Positions 14,273-45,900 of a stretch of 64,000 nucleotides of DNA are shown here, one piece after another. Both the position numbers and the translations under genes were made by a program. Positions within the stretch are counted from its first letter, which is position 1. Each line of letters starts with the position of its first letter. The stretch comes from Amanita rubescens (Eukaryota; Basidiomycota; Agaricomycetes; Agaricales; Amanitaceae), in assembly GCA_015039365.1 (NCBI GenBank), contig WION01000126.1:1-64000 (forward strand). The letters are read 5' to 3'. The notes beneath the pieces were generated by a model that saw nothing but the letters and a program-made list of their open reading frames with translations, ran no database searches and was not told the DNA's origin.

Positions 14273-17200
14273 TCAAATATGAATAATTTGATCATATAGG
14301 AAAGAAATCAATTTCCGATGATTGGAGGGCATAGAGCCAGATGTAATTTGGTTCTTCAGTTTCTTCACATAGTCTTGCTGCTCAAACTGGTACAAAGCAT
14401 CTGAGACAGTTTTGTCAAATCGCTTTGCTATGGAAAATGATAGCTTGCAAATTATAATAATTGCTTTGATACATTAGCCAGGTAAATGAATGAAATATGA
14501 ACTGTTACCAGCTAATATTTGGCAAGCTGAAGGCTAGCATAGCATTAGCTTTAATTGAGCATCATTGAAACAAACATAATTATTACTGTTACTGAGAATT
14601 TGGTAGATTTGCTTTCAATTCCATTTTGGAACAAAGAAAACAGCTCTTCCTGATAACAAGCAGCAATAAGACTCTGAAGTACATTTCACAAGTCACCTAC
14701 AGTCTTGCACATAATTTATAAATTAGCATGTCTATTGCTATCTTGTTCAGTCACATTACTCACCTGAGAAAATTGTAAAATCCATAAGGTAGTAGTGTTG
14801 GAGAAGTGAAAGCAGCATCATACCAACTGGTAGTTAAATCAGAAAATTTTACAAAGGAGTGTTGCACACTGGCTCACTCTCTGAACAGAGTCATTGATAA
14901 TGTTGGATGTCTGAGAAATATATTATCACTCACTTCCTGTAGGCCATGAGACAAGATGTGATGAAGACGGTGGCATCACTCACCAGCTAAGGATCATGGG
15001 CAAGATGTGATCCAGTTGCCTTCGGAAAGGAGAGCAAGGGTAATGTCACTCACACGCTGTTGGCCATGGGATTAGAAGCAAGGAAATAGAAAGTTGATGA
15101 GGTATCACTGACTCCCTGTTGGTCATGGAATAAGACATATTGAGACTGTCTGGAAAGTGCATTGTCACTCACATACTGTTGGTCATGGAGTGAGGCAAGT
15201 TGTGATTGTTTAAGAGACAATAGTGAAGTGTCTCACATGCTGTTGGTCATGGTAATGAGATGTGCTGGCAAGAAAAAGACAGTACATTGCTACTCACATC
15301 CTATTGGGCATGAGATGAGATTTGTTTAGTACTTGATGTCATGTCATTCACTTTCTGTTTTTTGTGATATCAGATGTTGTGAAATAACCTGGTCAAGGAT
15401 GGTACAAACTCACATCCTATGGGTGATGCCTGAGACTGCTGCTCAAAATAGTGCAATGTCACTTACCATCTTTTGGACATGGTAAGGTGTGGAAAGGTTA
15501 TCAACAGTGTCACTCACATACTGTTGGTTGTGGATGAGAGTGTAGTGAGAGTGTCTGGCAAAAGAAAGTACAGTGTCCCTCACATACTAGTGATCAGGGG
15601 GTGAGACATGATGAGACTATTGGAAAAAAGAGGATGTCACTGACATTCTGTTGGTCATGGAATGAGACATGTAGACATTGCCTGTAAAGAGACAGTGGTG
15701 TATTGCTTACTTCCTGTTGGTCATGCATGGTATGAGACATGTAGATCTTGCCTCTCAAACAACAGTTGGGATATCACTCACAAGCTATTGATCATGGTAG
15801 GAGATATTGTGAGGCTGCATGGAAGAGACAATGTCACTCACCCCCATTTTGTCCTTGGGGAAGATTTGTAGGGGCTGCTTGCCAAAATACTGCAGTATCA
15901 CTCACTCGAATCTGTTTATTGTGTGAGATGTGTTAAAGAGCTGGAAGACAGTGAAATGTCACTCACTTTCTATTTATTGTAAGATGACATGTGTTATTAG
16001 AAACTGGGCAGTGTCACTTACAATCTATTGGCCATGGTATGAGATACACTGAGGCCTGCATGGAAAAAGACAGTGCAGTATTACTCACCCCCTGGTCATG
16101 GCATAAGGCTTCCTGAAGGAGAGGATGCATTGTCACTCACCCCCTGTTTGCCATGGAATTTGAAGATGCATTGAGACTACCAGAAAAGATAGCAGTGTTG
16201 CTCACAACCTGTTTATCATAATATTTGAAACTGCTGACAATAGACAGTGCAATGCCACCTACTGTCTAGCATTTGGCATAAGATGAAGTGTGTCATAACT
16301 ACCCAGAGACAGTACAGTGTCACTCACAACCTGTTAGCCATGGTATGAGATGTACTGAGGCATTCATGGAAAATGACAGTGTAGCATCACTCACTCCCTA
16401 TCAGTCATAGTAGATGAGACATGATAAGAATGAGATGTTAGCATCGTTTACATGCTATTATTAATGGCATGTTGAAAAGATTGTGAGAAAACAGGCAATG
16501 CAGCATCACTCACTCTCTGTGTGGAGATGTTATTGGGCTGCCTAAAAAATACATTGGATTGTCACTCACTTGCTGTTAGTCATTTGATGAGATGTGCTGA
16601 GACTGCCTGAAGAAAGACTACAGGGCTACTTACCTGAATCTAGTATAAGATGTATTGAGACAGATTGGTAAAGGACAGTACAGTATCACTCACATTCTGT
16701 TAGTTCAAACCAGGCATAAGGAGATTGTCTAGTAAAGTACAGTGCATAGCCACATACTGCCTTTTGGTCATAGTCAAAATGTTCAATCTTGCTAGGCAAC
16801 AGACAGTATGGTGTTGCTCACTTTCTGATGCTCATTGGATCATGGGATGAAATGACATGCCAAGGTTACTAGTGGAAAGAGGTGGTGGTGTGTCACTCAC
16901 TTCCTGTTGATTGTGGCACAGGGATGAGATGAGATAGTTTCCAAGACAAGATTATCCTACTCACAACCTGTAGATTGTGATATTATAGGACTGGTGGTCA
17001 GAAGCCAATGCCTTGTTGCTCACAGCCTATCATTGGTCAAGGGATAGGATTGCAATGAGACTGCTGGAAAAAGTTATCACATCTTCACTCACAAACTAAT
17101 AGTCATAGGACAAAATCTGTGACAAAACATGAGAGTGCCACTCACATCCTATTATTTATAGAATAAAGAATAATTAGAATGTTCTGGCAGAAGAAGTGTA

Positions 17201-19018
17201 GTAGTATGATTTACCCTCTATTGGTCATGGGAGAAGCAGTGATATGACTGCTATACATAGACAAGTGTAACATTACCCACATTCTGTTGGATGTGTAGTG
17301 CAATGTCATGGACTGTCTGAGAAGAAAATGCATAAAATGTCACTCACATCCTGCTGGTCATTGGATCACAGCTCATTAAAATCAAAACAATACTACTTGC
17401 CCACATCTGAGTCTATCCATAACTTTAGATTCAGTAGCAGAAATATTTTTATCCTTACAAGTGTGTTGATCTTTTGAAACAGAGATGATCATCAAAACTC
17501 ATCCACAAGAGGTACTCGGGTTATGCCACATACATCATCCTATTTAAGCAATTCAATTGGGTAAACATTTGGTGATCAAATTCTTTGCATGAAAACCTAC
17601 TATTGTACACTATTCACAAGTTAGCTTTTGACATCAGCACTAAACCATTGTTACTATACCCAGTAATGTGGAAACCTGCTGGCAACAATAAAAGCAACAT
17701 CTAAGAATGTAAGTTTAATCTTTGAATTCAAGGTACATCTGGAGTCTGTCAAAGCTGGAAGTGGGAACATCCAAGTAAATCTCACTGAAGTGCAGCTTTG
17801 ACACAAAGATCAAGGTTGTTCCTTTGTGTTGAAATGAACACCTCTTGTAAACTAGCATCATCAATTGAATTTGCAGTTTGCTCTGTCAATTCAGGGCAGT
17901 TTTTCTCTGCAATGTGCATGTCTGTTGAAACAAATGTATCATATAAAAAAACAGACAGCATATATGTCATGATGTCCTACCTTCCAGTTTCACATATGCT
18001 TTTGGAGGATAGTTAGCTTTCAAGACTTTAGAGAGATAAATTTCCTTGAATGTATTTTCAGCATTTTCTCTGGCCTTGTTCCATCTGTGACTTTGGTCTT
18101 CTATATCATTCATTTTGACATATTCCTGGATTATTTGGGCATCAAATTTGGTGAATATAGTTATCAAAGGGACTGTGGAGGAAGTATTGGGTGGGGTGCA
18201 CAAAAAGCCAAACTTAATTTTGCAAGTGCCTTACCATTCCCTGTTCCATTGGTAAAGAACTCAAGCTCTGCAGATAGAAGAGGACGTGAGCCCTCCATGG
18301 GAATGCAATACCTGCAAAATCCTGCATCAGATGTCCATCTATACATATGATTAATACAAGGATACCAAATTGCATGCAATTGGTCCTTCAACTTAGGTGC
18401 AGCAGATCTCTTCTGAATGAAATTCTGAACAATTTCCATTTCCCCACTTGCACCAGCTTCAAAGCCCTGAGAATCATGAAAGATGAAGTTGCTTCCAGAG
18501 TATGTAATCTGGTGTTCAATGTCATGTATCCCTCTCTGAAATGTGTAGCACATCAAAGACTGAAGCTCCCATTTTGTACTAAGCACCATTTACTTACTTC
18601 AATTGATGGTGATAAAGGCATATATGCAGATGCCACATTTGCAGATGCTGCTGGTGGTGCTTTCTTCCCCAAAATGTGCATAACTTTGGCAAAAAGTGTC
18701 CTCTTAGGCTCAAACTTGTGCTCAAAATCAAATAGAATGCCATCCTCATCATAGATGATGGGTTTGGTTCCCTGAGCTACACCACAGACCTTCTCAAGAA
18801 TGGTGGTCTTGCCAGCATTGGCCCTTCCTACAATAAGAATACGGAAGTGGGGGCAATGGTATCGCTCCTTGAGGATTTTAACATGTTCTGCATCTGCTTG
18901 AAAGTCAAATTAAGAGTTGGGACATAAATTTTGCCTTACCTGGTGTATCCATGCCAAAATTTGATCCGGTGTCCATCATATCAACACTTGATGTGTCCAA
19001 ATTGGTGATGTCTGCCAT
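14273..19018 (-). CDS. P-loop GTPase gene with a microexon array (paralog 1)
   Basis: The G-domain exons are clear: 18940-19018, 18598-18893, 18366-18535, 18235-18311, 17981-18172, 17786-17921, 17660-17675, all joining in frame. They show G1 (GRANAGKTTILEKVCG), G3 (FHDSQGFEAG) and G4 (IFTKFDA), so this is a GTP-binding protein of a fungal G-domain family. Then come small exons of 9, 6, 12 and 6 nt (17601-17609, 17534-17539, 17459-17470, 17401-17406). These are followed by 42 microexons of 3-12 nt between 17350 and 14824, a 57-nt exon at 14593-14649 (EELFSLFQNG), and a C-terminal exon ending FLYDQIIHI at 14273 that is conserved as protein in the paralog. The splice join into the last exon is not resolved. 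Whether the microexons are really included is untested. Confidence 0.7.
14824..17350 (-). repeat. Array of ~62-nt intron units separated by 3-nt exons (array 1)
   Basis: On the minus strand I read 42 consecutive units. Each has a donor (mostly GTGAGT, also GTAAGT, GTCAGT, GTATGT, GTAGGT), a variable body often with CTCAT as a possible branch site, and an acceptor such as ccatgaccaacag. The sequence between one acceptor and the next donor is exactly 3 nt in 39 units, 6 nt in two (ATTCGA, ATTCAG) and 12 nt in one (GACAAAATGGGG). The 3-nt sequences vary freely, the splice sites do not. Intron bodies share a degenerate consensus, so the array grew by tandem duplication of intron plus codon. The plus-strand view is a tcactcac...ctgttggtcatgg minisatellite. 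Confidence 0.85.
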
Positions 19019-27597: not shown

Positions 27598-30500
27598 TCA
27601 AATATGGACAATTTGATCATACAGGAATAAAATCAATGTCTGATGATTGGAAGGCATAGAACTGGAGGTAATTTGGCTCTTCAGTTTCTCCACATAGCCT
27701 TGCTGCTTAAACTGGTACAAAGCATCCATGACAGTTTTGTCAAATGGCTTTGATATGGAAAATGAGAGCTTGCAAATTATAATAGTTGCTTTGATATGTT
27801 AGACAAGTAAATGCATGAAATATGGACTGTTACACTTACCAGCTAATATTTGGCAAGCAAGAGGCTAGCATAACATTAGCATTAATTGAGCATCATCGAA
27901 ACAAACATAATTATTACAATTATTGAGAATTTGGTAGAAGTATCTGCAATTCCATTTTGGAACAAAGATAATAGTTGCTCCTGATGACAAGCAGCAATGA
28001 GACTTTGAAGTACATTTCATGAATGCACATATGTACAGTCTCATTAATAAATTAGCATATCTAATTGGAGAACAGAAACAGAATCATACCAGCTGGTAGT
28101 GATATCAGAAATTTTTGAAAGGGGGTATTGTAAACCAGCTTACTTTCTGATGTAGAGTCATTTGGAATGTTGTATGTCTCAGAGGTACAGTGTCACTCAC
28201 TTCCTACCATAGACTATGGGATAAAATGTGATGAAGATGGTGCAGCAGAGTGACTGACCAGCTAAATATCATGGCATTAGATGTGATGGAGAAGTTGCCT
28301 AGAAAAGAGAGCAACAGCAATGTCACTAACACGCTATTGGTCATGGGATCAAAGTGAGGAAATAGACAATTGGTGAGATGTCCCTCACTCGCTGTTGGTC
28401 ATGGAATGAGACAAGTTGTAATTGCTTGAAAGACAATAGTGAAGTGTCTCACATGCTGTTGGTCATAGTATGGGATGTGCTAAGATTGGTAAGAAAAGAC
28501 AGTTCAGTGCTACTCACATGCTGTTGATCATCAGAAGAGATGTGGTTAGGACTGCTAGAATCAATGCAGTATTACTCACAACCTATTGGCCACAGCAGTA
28601 TGAGATGGTGCTGAGACCTGCATGAGAAAGACAGTGTTGCCTCACTCACTCCCTGTTGGTCATGACATAAGATGTTATGAGCCTGCCTGAGGGAAAGGAT
28701 GCATTATCATTCACCCCCTGTTGGTCATGGAATTTGAAGATGTGTTGAGACTATGTATTTACAACAAGACAACACTGTTGCTCACAACCTGTTAATCATG
28801 GTATTAAAACTGACAACAGACAGTGTAATGCCACCTACTGTCTATTGGTCATGGGATAATGTGTCATAACTGCCTAGAGACAGTGTAGTATCACTCACTC
28901 CCTGTTGGTCATAGGATATAATATGTACATGCATGTATGAAATGCAGTGCAGTGTTGCTCACTATCTGTGTGGACATGTCATTGGGCTGTGTAAAAGAAT
29001 AGATTGGATTGTCACTCACTCGCTGTTGGATTTGATGAGATGTGGTGAGACTGCCTGAAAAAAGAGTGCAGTGTCACCCACATGTAGCTTAGCATAATAT
29101 AAGATGTACTGAGACAGATTAATAAAGGGTAGTACAGTGTTGCTCACATTCTATAAGTTCAAATCATAAGGAGATTGCCTGGTAAAATGCAGTGCATTGC
29201 CACATACTCCCTATTGGCCATAGTCCAAAACATTTCAATCTGGCTAGGCAACAGACACTATGGTGTTGCTCACTTTCTGTTGGTTATGGTCCAGGGATGA
29301 GATATTTTCCAACAGAGAGTATACTACTCACAATCTGTTGATTGTGATACTATAGGAATGACAGTCAGAATCCAATTCCTTGTCACTCACAGGCTATTGG
29401 TAAGGGATATGATTTCAATGGGACTACTGGGAAAAGTTAGTACATTCTCACTCACAAGCTAATAGTCATAGTAGGACAGGAGCTGTGACAAGGAGTGACA
29501 ACATCACACACATCCTGTTATTTTTGGAACAAGCATAATTAGACCTGCCTGGAAGAAGAAGTGTAGCAGGATTTACTCTCTATTGGTCATGGGAGAAGCT
29601 GTAAATAGATGTAGACAAATGTAACATTACCCACATTCTGTTGGATGAGTAGTGCAATCATGTGGTGGACTGTTGAAAGGAAAAAGTGTAATGTCACTCA
29701 CATTCTGTTGGTTATTGGATAACAGCTCATCAAAATTAAGACAATACTACTTCCCCATTCCTGTCCATAGCATTAGATTCAGTAGCAGAAATGTTTTTAT
29801 GCTGACCAGTGCATTGATCTTTAACAAAGATGATTATCAAAGCTCATCCAGAAGAGATACAGTACAATGCCACATACATCATTCTATGTATTTGAGCAAT
29901 TTGATTGGATAAATATCTGTGGTTAAGTTCTTGAATGAAAACCTACTTTAGTACCCTATTCATGATTCAGCTTCTGATGTCAGCACTAAACAGTTGTTAC
30001 TATACCCAGTAATGTGGAAACCTGCTGATAACAATATCAACAACATCTATGAATGTAAGTTCAATGTTTGAATTCAGGGTATATCTGGAGTCTGTCGAAG
30101 TTGAATATTGGAATATTCAAGGTAAATCTCACTGAAGTGCTGCTTTGACACAAAGATGAAGGTTGTTCTTTTGTGTTGAAATGAACAGCTCATGTAAACT
30201 ATCATCATCAATTGCATTTGCTGTTTGCTCTGTCAATTCAGGGCAGTTCTTCTCTGCAATGTGCATATCTGTTAAAATAATTGTATCTTATCAAAGACAT
30301 ACTACAGCATCAGTGTCCTACCTTCCAGTTTCACATATGCTTTTGGTGGATGGTTAGCTTTCAAGACTTTAGAGAGATAAATTTCCTTGAAGATGTTTTC
30401 AGCATTTTCTCTGGCCTTGTCCCATCTACCACTTCTGTCTTCTATATCATTTATTTTGACATATTCTTGGATTATTTGAGCATCAAATTTGGTGAATATA

Positions 30501-31331
30501 GTTATCAAAGGAACTGTGAAGGCACCATGCATTATTCAGTACACAGGTTTTATTGTGCAGAATGCACAAAAAAGTAAAACTCAATATTGCCAGTGCCTTA
30601 CCATTTCCTGTCCCTTTGGTAAAAAACTCAAGTTCTGCAGTTAGAAGAGGACGTGAGCCCTCCATAGGAATGCAATACCTGCAAAATCCTGCATTAGATG
30701 TCCTTGTATATGATTAATGTAAAGATACCAAATTGCATGCAATTGGTCTTTCAACTCAGATGCAGCAGATCTTTCCTCAATGAAATTCCAAACAATTTCC
30801 ATCTCCCCACTTTCACCAGCTTCAAAGCCCTGAGAATCATGAAAAATGAAGTTGCTTCCAGAGTATGTAATCTGATGTTCAATGTCATGTATCCCTCTCT
30901 GAAAAGTATGGTATATCAAAGACTTGTGCTCCCATGTACTAAGCACCATTTACTTACTTCAATTGATGGTGATAAAGGTGAATATGCAGATGCTACATTT
31001 TCAGAAGATACTGGTGCTGCTTTCCTCCCCAAAATATGCTTGATTTTGGCACAAAGCTTCCTCTTAGGCACATGCTTGGGCTCATAATCAAGCATAACAC
31101 CATCCTGATCATGGATGATGGGTATGGTTCCCTGAGCTACACCACAGACCTTCTCAAGAATGGTGGTCTTGCCAGCATTGGCCCTTCCTACAATAAGAAT
31201 ACGGAAGTGGGGGCAATGATATCGCTTCTTGAGGATCCTGACATGTTCTGCATCTACCTGCAAGTCAATTTAAATAGTTGGGACATGAATTCTGGCTTAC
31301 TTGATGCATCCATGTTGATGGTTTCTGCCAT
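27598..31331 (-). CDS. P-loop GTPase gene with a microexon array (paralog 2)
   Basis: This is the paralog of the gene at 14273-19018. The first exon starts at 31331 (MAETINMDAS). After an intron ending caggtag the G domain reads NAEHVRILKKRYHCPHF, then G1 (GRANAGKTTILEKVCG), later FHDSQGFEAG and IFTKFDA. The C-terminal exon near 27600-27750 (FDKTVMDALYQFKQQGYVEK, ending FLYDQIVHI) is intact and differs from paralog 1 largely by amino-acid-tolerant changes, so it has been under coding constraint. Between them lie small exons and 27 microexons. Two splice signals differ from paralog 1: a GC donor has become GG near 29755, and the donor after the EQLLSLFQNG exon reads AT instead of GT. This copy may therefore be partly decayed. 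Confidence 0.65.
28090..29704 (-). repeat. Array of ~62-nt intron units separated by 3-nt exons (array 2)
   Basis: I read 27 units on the minus strand with the same plan as array 1: GTGAGT-like donor, CAG/TAG acceptor, and 3 nt between acceptor and next donor in 26 units, 6 nt (CTACAT) in one. Aligning intron bodies to array 1 shows that a block of about eleven units (8-18 of array 1) is absent. At least eleven of the aligned microexons are identical in sequence and two more are synonymous (AGG/AGA and GGG/GGA). No microexon codon is a stop. Confidence 0.85.
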
Positions 31332-41983: not shown

Positions 41984-42593
41984 CTACTGCTCAGGGAAAT
42001 GAATAAGCACGAGTTTATATCCCGCCGTCCATCCGACGTATGTAGACCCATGAACTTGCCCAGAATGAAAGGATGCACCGACAGGAAGTGCTCCCATATA
42101 CCTGCCGGTATTGATATTTGTGATCCACCCCCCTATCATCGGTTCGTCCATTGCATGCTTAGGGGTATCACCAGCTGCTATTTGTGGATGCGGTAACACA
42201 ATCATGCCAGTGCTTGCATCCCAAACTAGAATGGTCTTCTCAGAAGACCCCGAGATTTTGGATCCATCGGGCGAGAATGCGACGGAACAAATCCAGTGAT
42301 CGTGGCCTCGAAGGGGTGGGAGCATCTCGACGCCAGTGCTAAGACTTGCTTGCATCCCAAACTCGAATAGTCTGGTCATCTGACCCTGAGATGATTTTGG
42401 ACCCATCAGGCGAGAATGTCACGGAACGAATCCAGTGATCGTGGCCTCGAAGGGGTGGGAGCGTCTCGACGCCAGTGCTTGCATCCCAAACTCGAATCGT
42501 CTTGTCAGAAGACCCCGAGATGATTTTGGATCCATCAGGCGAGAATGCGACGGAAAAAATCCAGTCATCATGGCCTCGAAGGGGTGGCACCAA
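41984..42593 (-). pseudogene. WD40-repeat relic, three near-identical repeats
   Basis: Three tandem WD40 units read [38 protein letters not shown] and [19 protein letters not shown], each followed by an [11 protein letters not shown] ending. The repeats are nearly identical in DNA, as in the rapidly evolving WD40 arrays of fungal NACHT-WD40 (HNWD-type) immune receptors. Between the second and third repeat about 8 extra nt (aagacttg) shift the frame, and one codon is lost in the third. No NACHT or HET domain is present upstream. It is probably the C-terminal remnant of such a receptor. Confidence 0.6.
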
Positions 42594-42977: not shown

Positions 42978-45900
42978 TCAACCAAATGCTCCAACGGATT
43001 GCCAGTAAATTATCTGTCGGAGGAGGTACTTCCTATCAAAAGAACCAATGGTCGTCATCAGTGTGATGGATTCTTTCCCAGCTTTTGCACTATCCAAGAC
43101 GACTTCCCCAGTGGCCAACCTCAGGAAATCCTTCTGAAAAAACGACAACAGAGGGTATGCTGCGTTTCTTTGTGGGTCCGTTCCCAAGGCGCGTATCTGT
43201 CCTAACCACGTCGAATAGTCAACTAGGGCAACTTCCTGCCGAAGAGAATCTCGGAGTATCGACGTGATAGCTTCCATGAGATCCTTCCATGACTGACGAA
43301 AGGGATTCTCAACATGGTACACGTTTAGAAATCGCTTGGAGAAGAGCAGCTCGGTGATGCTGGAAGCCGCACGGTTCAGGGGGATCCACGAGTAAGACTG
43401 GCGCGATGCTCATGAGAGCGTAATCCGGAGACGGGGAAAGGTCGACGTACCCCTGGTAGACGAGGAAGGGTTTTCGTCACGCAGGACATTCGCATCATGA
43501 CAGGAAAATGTTCACGTTCATTCCAAACGCCAGATCTCTCGGAACCCGACATTTGCCCTATTCTTACAGAGCAACACCGTAATTTGGTACCGTACATCCT
43601 CGTTGCCGACATCAGCAGTTCTTCGCAAACCCACTTGGCCTCTGCGTATCCCATTTCAGCTGTGTATACAGGTCCGAATGGGCGCTCTGGTACTTTCTGA
43701 GGACCGTTGGAGTTGAGCCGTGGATAGTTTGCCACAACAGCGATGGACGAAGCAAACATGAATCGAATAGGATTTCTGTTCACCCTCCGCGAGGCACTTT
43801 CCAAAGCGACCCGTATAAGATTAACAAGGACTCTTATATGGGGTTCGAAAGATGACAAGGACCAGCTGAAATTAACGGGCCAGGCGTTGTGAATGACGTG
43901 CGTCACATCGAGTAACTGCCCGGCCGCTTTCGGTTCAAGTCCGAGACCATCTTGGCTAAGGTTGCATTCGTACAGGGTGATCTTGGACCACTCGTACTTG
44001 GACAGAGAAATGTCGTGCTTCTTCAGCTGCTCCAGTTGCCTGGTTCTGAGGCTTATTGGTCCAGATCTGTTTAGGCAAATGATGCTGGTCACATCAGGAT
44101 CCCGAGCTAAGCGCGCCAACAGGAAGCATCCGAGGTTACCAGTCGAGCCGGTCAAGAGGACCACATTCTTATTTTCGGAATCGCATGATTGCCTCGACCG
44201 AGACCTAGCAAGATCCGTAATATCACGAAAACTTGCTAAAACGGACATGTATTTTCGTCGCCATGGCCTCCATTGCTGCTATCCTGTGTTCTTCCCGCGA
44301 AAGAGTGGTTGAGAAGTTGGCCTGGGATGCGTGGCTTCTATAGGACAAGGCCGCACATAACTTGTCGACAGAAGGATTGGCGAAAACAACGTCCGTTGCG
44401 ACGTGCAAGGCGCTCTCCGTTAACCCCAGCCGGCCGAGCAGTGCTCTTCGAAGTCGCGCGGCTTGTAGACTGTCCATCCCGGCATCAAAGAAGTCTGCGC
44501 TATCATCTTCTAGGAAAAACGCCAAGTTTCCGAATATGTTCATTAATCATCGACCGTAGCCCTCCTTGCGTCATAGATACCGGTGAACATCTCGTGATCC
44601 TCCAACCTCTCGTAACACTTCTTTATGTCTTTCTCAAACGACGCGTAGTTTTCCTTTCGTGCCAGACTGCCTTTATCCGTTTTCCTCAGAGGCCTGTTCA
44701 TCTTCCATCGTTAGTACGACCATCTCCGGCGCGACTTTTGCGTGGCCCTCGACACAATCATTCCCTCTCTGGATATAAACATCTAATCCCAGACGAGCGA
44801 TAAACGCTAGCTACCTCCTGCTGTATATCCAAATTAACGCAGGGAGGGACAACACCTTCGTCTATCTCAATAATGACGCCTAGCTCAAATTTTCCGTCTC
44901 CAAATGCCAACACGTCCTTGACGCGAGGATGTTTAGAAATCTCTCTCTCCAGTGTACCCGGTCGGACCTTTTCGCCCGTCGCCAGGACTATGAGATCATC
45001 GGCCCTACCCAGAATTTTGAACTGCTTGCGATTTATAGGGTTCGAACGCAAGAAGGATCTTGGACGACATACGGTTCCTTCCAACCAGGTGCTCTGCCGA
45101 TTAGCCTGCAAGGTATCTTCTTTCGCGATGAATGCAAGGCTCGTATCTGCGCGCGGTACAAGATAACATCCGTCGTATTCTCTCGGTGGATGCTCTATAG
45201 GCGCAATCGGTCCTATTTCCGTCGTACCTTTCGTCTCAGTCTTAGAGCCGGAACCGATAGCAAAGGAAGATTTGAAACATACCCCAATGGTTTAAAAATT
45301 GACCTTGGCTCGAACAAGTTCTTGAATCACCGACTCCTTCATCGGTGCTCCACCGATGGCTAGGATTTCCAGTTGGCGCAACATTGCTAAGCCGTCGGCT
45401 TCCCGATTCCGCAAAATATCCTGGACGATTGAAGGCACGGTTAACATATACCGGGCACCCGTTACTCGTAAAGTCGTCATGGTAGACCGCGCTGTCGGAA
45501 TTGTGGAAGAGGACAATAGAACAAATGGTAACCCAATAGAAAGCGAGAGACACGGTGCTAAGAGACCGAAGCCCTGTTAGAACGATCAGTCACCAAGGCT
45601 TATCATGAAGAAGGAATACGAACGTGATAAAGTGGTAATGTGGAAACGTTAAATCGAAATGGATTCTTTGGCGGAGGAAGCCTATGACATGTCGCATACA
45701 ACAAAACATAGGCTTGTGCATGGAAAATGGGCTTCGGAAGGCCTGTGGTTCCAGATGTGTGCAAGATAATGGCATCCAGATCGTCGCGTCCGTAGGCAGA
45801 GTAGACTGGCGGGACCTTGATAAGCACCCCCTGCTGTTTATCAAAATCAAAGAAGGTGGGCGCGTCGATGAATTTGATATTATCATCTGCGAATGTGAGT

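Follow-up and report, generated by a model that had tools for sequence, protein, structure and literature searches.

Tandem arrays of predicted single-codon exons in a family of GTPase-like genes of Amanita rubescens

We describe a gene family of the fungus Amanita rubescens in which a string of predicted exons, most of them exactly three nucleotides long, lies between a GTPase-like domain and a conserved C-terminus. The case was first seen in a stretch of 64,000 nucleotides (positions 1 to 64,000 of contig WION01000126.1, assembly GCA_015039365.1), which we call the window. Removal in silico of six ordinary introns (46–62 nt) from the 5′ part of one gene leaves a stop-free frame of 1029 nt (343 codons) that covers the G domain and ends in FPHYW, in phase 0; against Pfam, its match to MMR_HSR1 scored just under the cut-off. 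The stretch that follows (17659–17351) is poorly handled by our parser and contains a likely 12-nt exon, whose residues are similar to RINAL in the annotated paralog model P0002. Beyond it lies the array, and beyond the array the conserved C-terminal exons (Table 1).

An original prediction, made from the letters of the window alone, had placed 42 consecutive exons in this array – 39 of 3 nt, two of 6 nt and one of 12 nt – and a parse with a uniform prior on exon length (0–18 nt) returned the same series over the same span. The introns measure 47–76 nt, about the size of the ordinary introns, and mostly carry GTRAGT-type donors and YAG acceptors. A plain regular expression recovers 40 of the 42 junctions, the two missed having GTGGGT or GTAGGT donors, at the price of five spurious extra ones. 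The array is absent from the output of Tandem Repeats Finder, probably because neighbouring introns differ by 17–31 edits, and scans of the 64-kb window with Rfam (gathering cut-offs) and for tRNAs gave no matches.

Table 1. Positions of the family members and their arrays in the window
Feature	Position	Strand	Basis
5′ part of first gene, seven exons from the ATG at 19018 through the G domain to ...ASRFPHYW	17660..19018	minus	homologs; exon ends by eye
Probable 12-nt exon ATCAACACACTT (I N T L), between G domain and array	17459..17470	minus	by eye, inferred
First array, consecutive micro-exons	14824..17350	minus	parse
6-nt exons of first array	16639-16634 and 15911-15906	minus	parse
12-nt exon of first array	15853-15842	minus	parse
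Conserved exon after array, EELFSLF..., EELFSLFQNGIESKSTKFS	14593..14649	minus	3′ end by eye
Last exon, KRFDKTVSDALYQFEQQDYVKKLKNQITSGSMPSNHRKLISFLYDQIIHI then stop	14273..14427	minus	5′ end by eye
G-domain exon of second family member, 77% identical	30925..31266	minus	similarity
Second array, 27 exons parsed (25 of 3 nt)	28090..29704	minus	parse

The G-domain exons and the conserved C-terminal exon that had been predicted to flank the array are indeed present, but the arrangement is not the property of one gene: it is family-wide. The second array in the window has codons that align by eye with those of the first, with 15 fewer units. (We refer to the two arrays in the window as W1 and W2, to family regions elsewhere in the assembly by numbers beginning with L, and to contigs by numbers beginning with C.) In the assembly the G-domain exon has at least 150 scored matches, haplotype copies among them, and all 20 family regions taken around the best of these (some of them haplotype copies) hold such arrays. 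Each of the 20 regions has 18–64 sites at which acceptor and donor stand three nucleotides apart on the array strand, and at most four at any other gap between 0 and 12. Contig C3 carries two arrays, in which 88 and 37 exons of 3 nt were parsed. Over the arrays parsed with the uniform prior, copies included, 850 of 962 junctions are exactly 3 nt.

The same spacing emerges from a pattern applied to the whole genome. Searches for MAAYAG-N(k)-GTGAGTGA gave 2,601 matches for k=3 as against 17 (k=2), 10 (k=4) and 33 (k=6); the reversed pattern, our control, gave 12, 1, 10 and 8, respectively. The gap-2 matches are clustered, 10 of the 17 in an array on C749 and three in an array on C13. Since 287 of 826 parsed 3-nt exons fit the strict pattern, we extrapolate to some 7,500 three-nt exons in the assembly, haplotype copies included; the true number may be higher because part of the sample (C3, C13, C79) was picked by means of the pattern. 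Bounded by predicted splice sites and no longer than 30 nt, these exons are microexons by size and boundaries. Some of the 6-nt exons are themselves clustered: nine of the 33 gap-6 matches lie at C190:186270-188423 and C229:26301-28452 (e.g. CAATCT, CAATAT), with the same splice motifs, and these are perhaps units of an intron plus two codons.

To judge from the sequence, the triplets behave as phase-0 codons. In 15 arrays, kept after removal of eight copies from 23 parsed, none of 549 three-nt exons is a stop triplet, where 37.3 were expected (20,000 permutations in which the first base was shuffled relative to the last two; minimum 22). When all exons with a length that is a multiple of 3 are counted, stops number 3 of 649 in frame 0, 7 of 621 in frame 1 and 78 of 621 in frame 2. 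Restricted to runs of 3-nt exons, frame 0 has no stop against a shuffled-control mean of 36.1; frame 1 has four against 7.0 (P 0.10) and frame 2 has 67 against 68.5, neither clearly depleted. A genome-wide count that is independent of the parser, and in which haplotype copies are counted twice, gives the same picture: the pattern captures a TAA or TGA triplet once, and triplets with other first bases before AA or GA (VRA) 1,302 times. T is by no means rare as a first base, standing in 289 of the 853 triplets that end in AT or TT (other first bases, 564), so about 667 stop triplets would be expected. Eight compared paralogs spell W-F-E-K/Q-G-K-K-E-T-D-R-E-I with few changes, one residue per exon, and the flanking exons are in phase 0 on both sides of the array in L018 and W1.

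A reading in frame +1, attractive at first because the tails of young arrays then give natural-looking strings of D, E, K and L by eye, was dropped: the flanks of L018 and W1 fix phase 0, and frame 0 alone of the three shows a clear shortage of stops relative to shuffled controls. The last base of single-codon exons is C in 1%, G in 11% and A or T in 88% of cases (15 arrays); the base that usually precedes a donor is G.

Evidence for splicing comes from two proteins encoded by short contigs in JGI records, P0041 (386 aa, 1,446-nt contig) and P0092 (311 aa, 1,903-nt contig). The parts of the G domain that they cover are without the domain's ordinary introns, from which we infer that the contigs are cDNA. 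Beyond the G domain the two proteins run on into ...KWFEKGKKESDREIEYDGG and ...QWFEHGKKDTDKQIVYDGE, respectively. The peptide obtained from L022 by reading one letter per exon scores 94 against P0041 and 87 against P0092, whereas the best of 500 shuffles of codon order score 50 and 44; WFEKGKKETDREIKYD is an example of a predicted array peptide. Among matches in this genome at E 1e-40 or better, P0092 is 79–85% identical and the full-length protein P0017 72%, so that neither comes from this genome and the P0092 contig is probably from a relative. Splicing of the arrays at the present loci is likely on these comparisons. A protein search with the L018 array region returned no matches, but carries little weight, since P0041 and P0092 were not returned either; a query made of the P0017 C-terminal half matched nothing but P0017 itself and P0020. 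Several of 20 protein models from A. brunnescens, A. polypyramis, A. muscaria, Hebeloma and Jaapia stop no more than about 25 residues past an FPHYW-like motif or one exon earlier, a hint that arrays, or some other obstacle to annotation, are more widespread.

What the arrays would encode is suggested by a comparison of P0017 with P0020, both full length. The two are identical at 265 of 277 columns before the segment and at 88 of 95 after it, at 22 of 27 and five of nine on its edges, and at 17 of 54 inside it, where a further 17 of the 54 columns are gaps. In an AlphaFold model, pLDDT falls below 50 at residues 1–15, 69–79 and 293–358, the last of which spans most of the stretch from FPHYW (288–292) to ILPELF (372). 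The array product is, as modelled, probably a disordered, hypervariable linker between the GTPase-like domain and C-terminal helices. A Foldseek search with the model placed immunity-related GTPases (Irga6, GM4951) and dynamin-like proteins nearest (E ~3e-6). The likeness to immunity-related GTPases is one of fold in the model, with TM no higher than 0.44 and identity of 12–13%, and is without a counterpart in sequence: P0017 matched no solved chain at E 0.1, and six proteins compared with Pfam gave MMR_HSR1 or Arf as best match, weakly, with no IRG family among the matches listed. Family size and a hypervariable segment together bring recognition genes to mind by analogy, but this function is a guess.

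A critical issue is how such arrays arise and change, and here the young arrays are the most instructive. One 62-nt intron is modal in the distal units of L018 (21 perfect copies), L022 (C604:4900-14000; 23), L023 (C599:57500-66500; 11), L030 (C13:579000-585800; 41) and L031 (41). Its sequence is identical across the five loci, while the triplets differ from unit to unit: mean pairwise divergence in these arrays is 0.31–0.65 per exon base versus 0–0.016 per intron base, a ratio of 40–367 in four of them, the fifth having no intron differences at all. On C79 a block of 18 units, private intron variants included, has been duplicated; three intron positions in about 1,119 nt differ between the two copies, and reading them side by side shows five of 18 codons changed, three as whole triplets. 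The original prediction had the arrays grow by duplication of a unit of one intron plus one codon. The introns of the young arrays are copies, and a block has been duplicated, yet neighbouring codons mostly differ; since identical introns flank different codons, simple duplication is insufficient.

The range of codons in these tails is narrow. L018, L022, L030 and L031 use seven, six, five and 13 different codons, in each case a smaller set than in equal-sized samples drawn from older arrays (P 0.0005 or less); L023, with seven among 10, does not fall below such samples (P 0.29). When the samples are drawn instead from the pooled tails, the numbers for L018, L022 and L030 are low (P 0.05 or less) and those for L023 and L031 are not.

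A mutational process directed at codons, one that rewrites the triplets and spares the introns, would account for divergence ratios of this order and for the whole triplets replaced on C79. We nonetheless rate it improbable, because of the comparison of alleles. The codon strings of L031, L032 and L034, presumed alleles of C79, agree codon by codon, the loss of one unit and truncated ends aside, whereas a few of the introns differ, so that triplets are not now being rewritten faster than introns. (An apparent 26 differences in 255 exon positions between L031 and L034 proved to be an alignment artefact of the lost unit.) Older near-copies point the same way: codons are unchanged at 75 of 75 bases between W2 and L010 and at 90 of 90 between L025 and L028, despite 15 and five intron changes. 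These older copies also show what is held constant. The introns of W2/L010, L015/L017 and L019/L020 contain 12, 33 and 31 gap columns, their 3-nt exons none; exon length is conserved in all four older pairs and introns are gapped in three, while in other compared pairs whole units have been lost. Counts of synonymous and non-synonymous changes in the conserved head (5 versus 60 single-base differences) were set aside, the pairs being non-independent.

A more serious alternative for the young arrays, if still an unlikely one, is a burst of introners, in which a mobile 62-nt intron was inserted at successive codon boundaries of an uninterrupted low-complexity exon, so that the codons are old and the introns new. 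A single modal intron in five loci with unrelated codon strings is what such a burst would leave, as are codon strings kept between presumed alleles, and the modal tail intron is common to L018 and L022 although their flanks differ at 76 of 2,078 bases. A 32-base intron-junction pattern has 579 exact matches genome-wide (control, 0), so that near-identical introns number in the hundreds, as they do for fungal introner-like elements, which are described as hundreds of near-identical spliceosomal introns per genome in unrelated genes (PMC4457414). In that account the elements are scattered, whereas the copies parsed here are arrayed, at 3-nt spacing, at a single position in one gene family. All parsed arrays come from loci reached via that family or via the gap-3 pattern, and isolated matches to this pattern do exist (e.g. 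C1:570574). The exact spacing is the main difficulty for a burst: we know of no process that places insertions three nucleotides apart dozens of times. Moreover, the block duplicated on C79 carried its intron variants with it, the codon changes coming after, and none of the family loci examined in this assembly has an uninterrupted segment.

Our preferred reading, to which we assign a probability of roughly 0.8, is that the variable segment is encoded by single-codon exons of 3 nt, and that intron and codon together probably form the unit of duplication, loss and recombination, in frame. The short introns between single codons would be spliced out one by one, and duplication, loss and recombination of whole units would add, remove or exchange single residues without shifting the frame. 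Long stretches of intron identity may serve as handles for recombination, and selection would maintain the diversity of codons. Exchange of whole units gives the best fit to identical introns flanking different codons, since the introns would record nothing of it. The arrays, their spacing, the near-absence of stops, the codons common to paralogs, the pairing of identical introns with different codons and the identity of codons between presumed alleles are all read from the genome; splicing and translation are supported by contigs of a relative. As to the predicted unit, frame and splice signals are kept here and in the other parsed arrays, with few out-of-frame exceptions (L023, L030 and C749).

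Several observations weigh against this account, and the first group concerns translation. P0087, an annotated A. rubescens model, joins FPHYWVMMKQ to the C-terminal part without array residues; P0041 and P0092 end before the conserved C-terminus; and in six of the eight contig proteins no alignment with an array rises above shuffles. With two further annotated models, P0001 and P0027, that end at or before the array, P0087 fits a minisatellite in one long intron or 3′ untranslated region that is never translated. The original prediction had argued against a dead minisatellite, and that argument is strengthened by the near-zero count of stop triplets, the codons common to paralogs and the two cDNA-like contigs, in whose open frames array peptide is found; with the exactness of the spacing added, we regard an untranslated minisatellite as very improbable.

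A second group concerns spacing and frame. The exon is not 3 nt at 112 of the 962 parsed junctions, many of them near array edges, and some are parser errors that we left uncorrected (row 26 of W2 passes over a nearer acceptor). A looser parse by regular expression, in which 24 chains retain copies and edges, has five stops among 875 triplets. L030 contains 2- and 4-nt exons with a net shift, L023 has one 4-nt exon, and the C749 array (C749:2135-4150, minus strand) accounts for the 10 gap-2 matches noted above. These out-of-frame arrays may be assembly errors or decay, and they are what one would expect if the arrays were decaying relics of a family once expressed. For the family at large this is the least probable of the explanations considered, given one stop-type triplet genome-wide where hundreds were expected, and the rarity of gap-2 and gap-4 exons, the former clustered. 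The C749 array also holds three of the 10 4-nt exons found genome-wide, and may be in decay or wrongly assembled; the spliced string of L030, despite its frame shifts, is by eye still a low-complexity peptide.

A third group concerns whole-unit exchange itself. Unit shuffling should leave recurrent codon words; their excess over shuffled strings is clear in L018 alone and weak in L030 and L031, and L022 and L023 show none. Local duplication leaves the same 62-nt intron in several loci unexplained; this would need exchange between paralogs or introner-like spread. Nor is purifying selection on the codons significant: L015 and L017 differ at 3 of 129 exon and 119 of 2,713 intron bases (P 0.37), and in the four near-copy pairs pooled codons change somewhat less than introns (P 0.22).

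Exchange of whole units can be taken a step further. The near-identical introns might act as homology spacers for recombination inside single genes and among dispersed ones, which would duplicate, delete and swap residues and so rewrite, codon by codon, the variable segment of an immune-like GTPase family; this we put forward tentatively, as somewhat less than an even chance. If it were true, it would be exon shuffling at its limit, one residue per exon, never out of frame and always competent for splicing. More generally, the data suggest a possible role of introns in the gain, loss and shuffling of single amino acids in frame. The arrays bear on the long-standing proposal that proteins are built by recombination with the aid of introns. 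They also challenge the notion of a workable gene, for the spliceosome would have to join up to about 88 successive 3-nt exons without losing a codon, and they offer a natural test of intron definition and of microexon splicing where there is no room for exon-bound factors. Annotated gene models can end prematurely at such arrays.

Single microexons have precedents: the 1-nt exons of plant APC11 and VPS55 (PMC8831610), a 3-bp micro-exon in Drosophila homothorax (PMC7392893) and the Xlr2 microexon of Trichoderma (PMC11121469), the last from a 2024 report stating that functional microexons had previously been undescribed in filamentous fungi. As those sources present them, they share with the present arrays exons of one to a few nucleotides between normal introns, often missed by annotation; they number one or two per gene, whereas here dozens to about 88 follow in a row. 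The nearest worked-out parallel, in so far as its source describes it, is provided by the repeats of fungal NLR proteins (WD, ANK, TPR), which are near-identical, are shuffled within and between paralogs, and vary at a few hypervariable codons under concerted evolution and diversifying selection (PMC4986451). In those repeats the conserved part is protein; in the array units it is the intron, and one residue is coded.

The microexon genes of schistosomes (MEGs) encode secreted proteins, with a signal peptide, that are built largely from many tiny tandem exons with lengths in multiples of 3, most of them longer than one codon. The present arrays likewise consist of tandem tiny exons in multiples of 3, but their product begins with a GTPase-like domain, and we know of no MEG in which single codons alternate with identical introns in an array. 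A search of full-text literature, outside which lie most subscription papers and bioRxiv as such, yielded single microexons down to 1 nt, microexon genes and introner-like elements; among the papers listed, none had one-codon exons in series.

Three further observations are recorded here. Opposite the L022 array, on the minus strand, nine pairs of acceptor-like and donor-like motifs stand at a gap of 2, probably belonging to a different repeat. Elsewhere in the window, positions 42347–42587 hold 1.9 copies of a 129-bp tandem repeat (88% matches), one translated minus-strand frame of which contains a stop. Finally, an open frame at 43376–44278 on the minus strand matches Pfam NAD_binding_4 (E 4e-23), a reductase-type domain.

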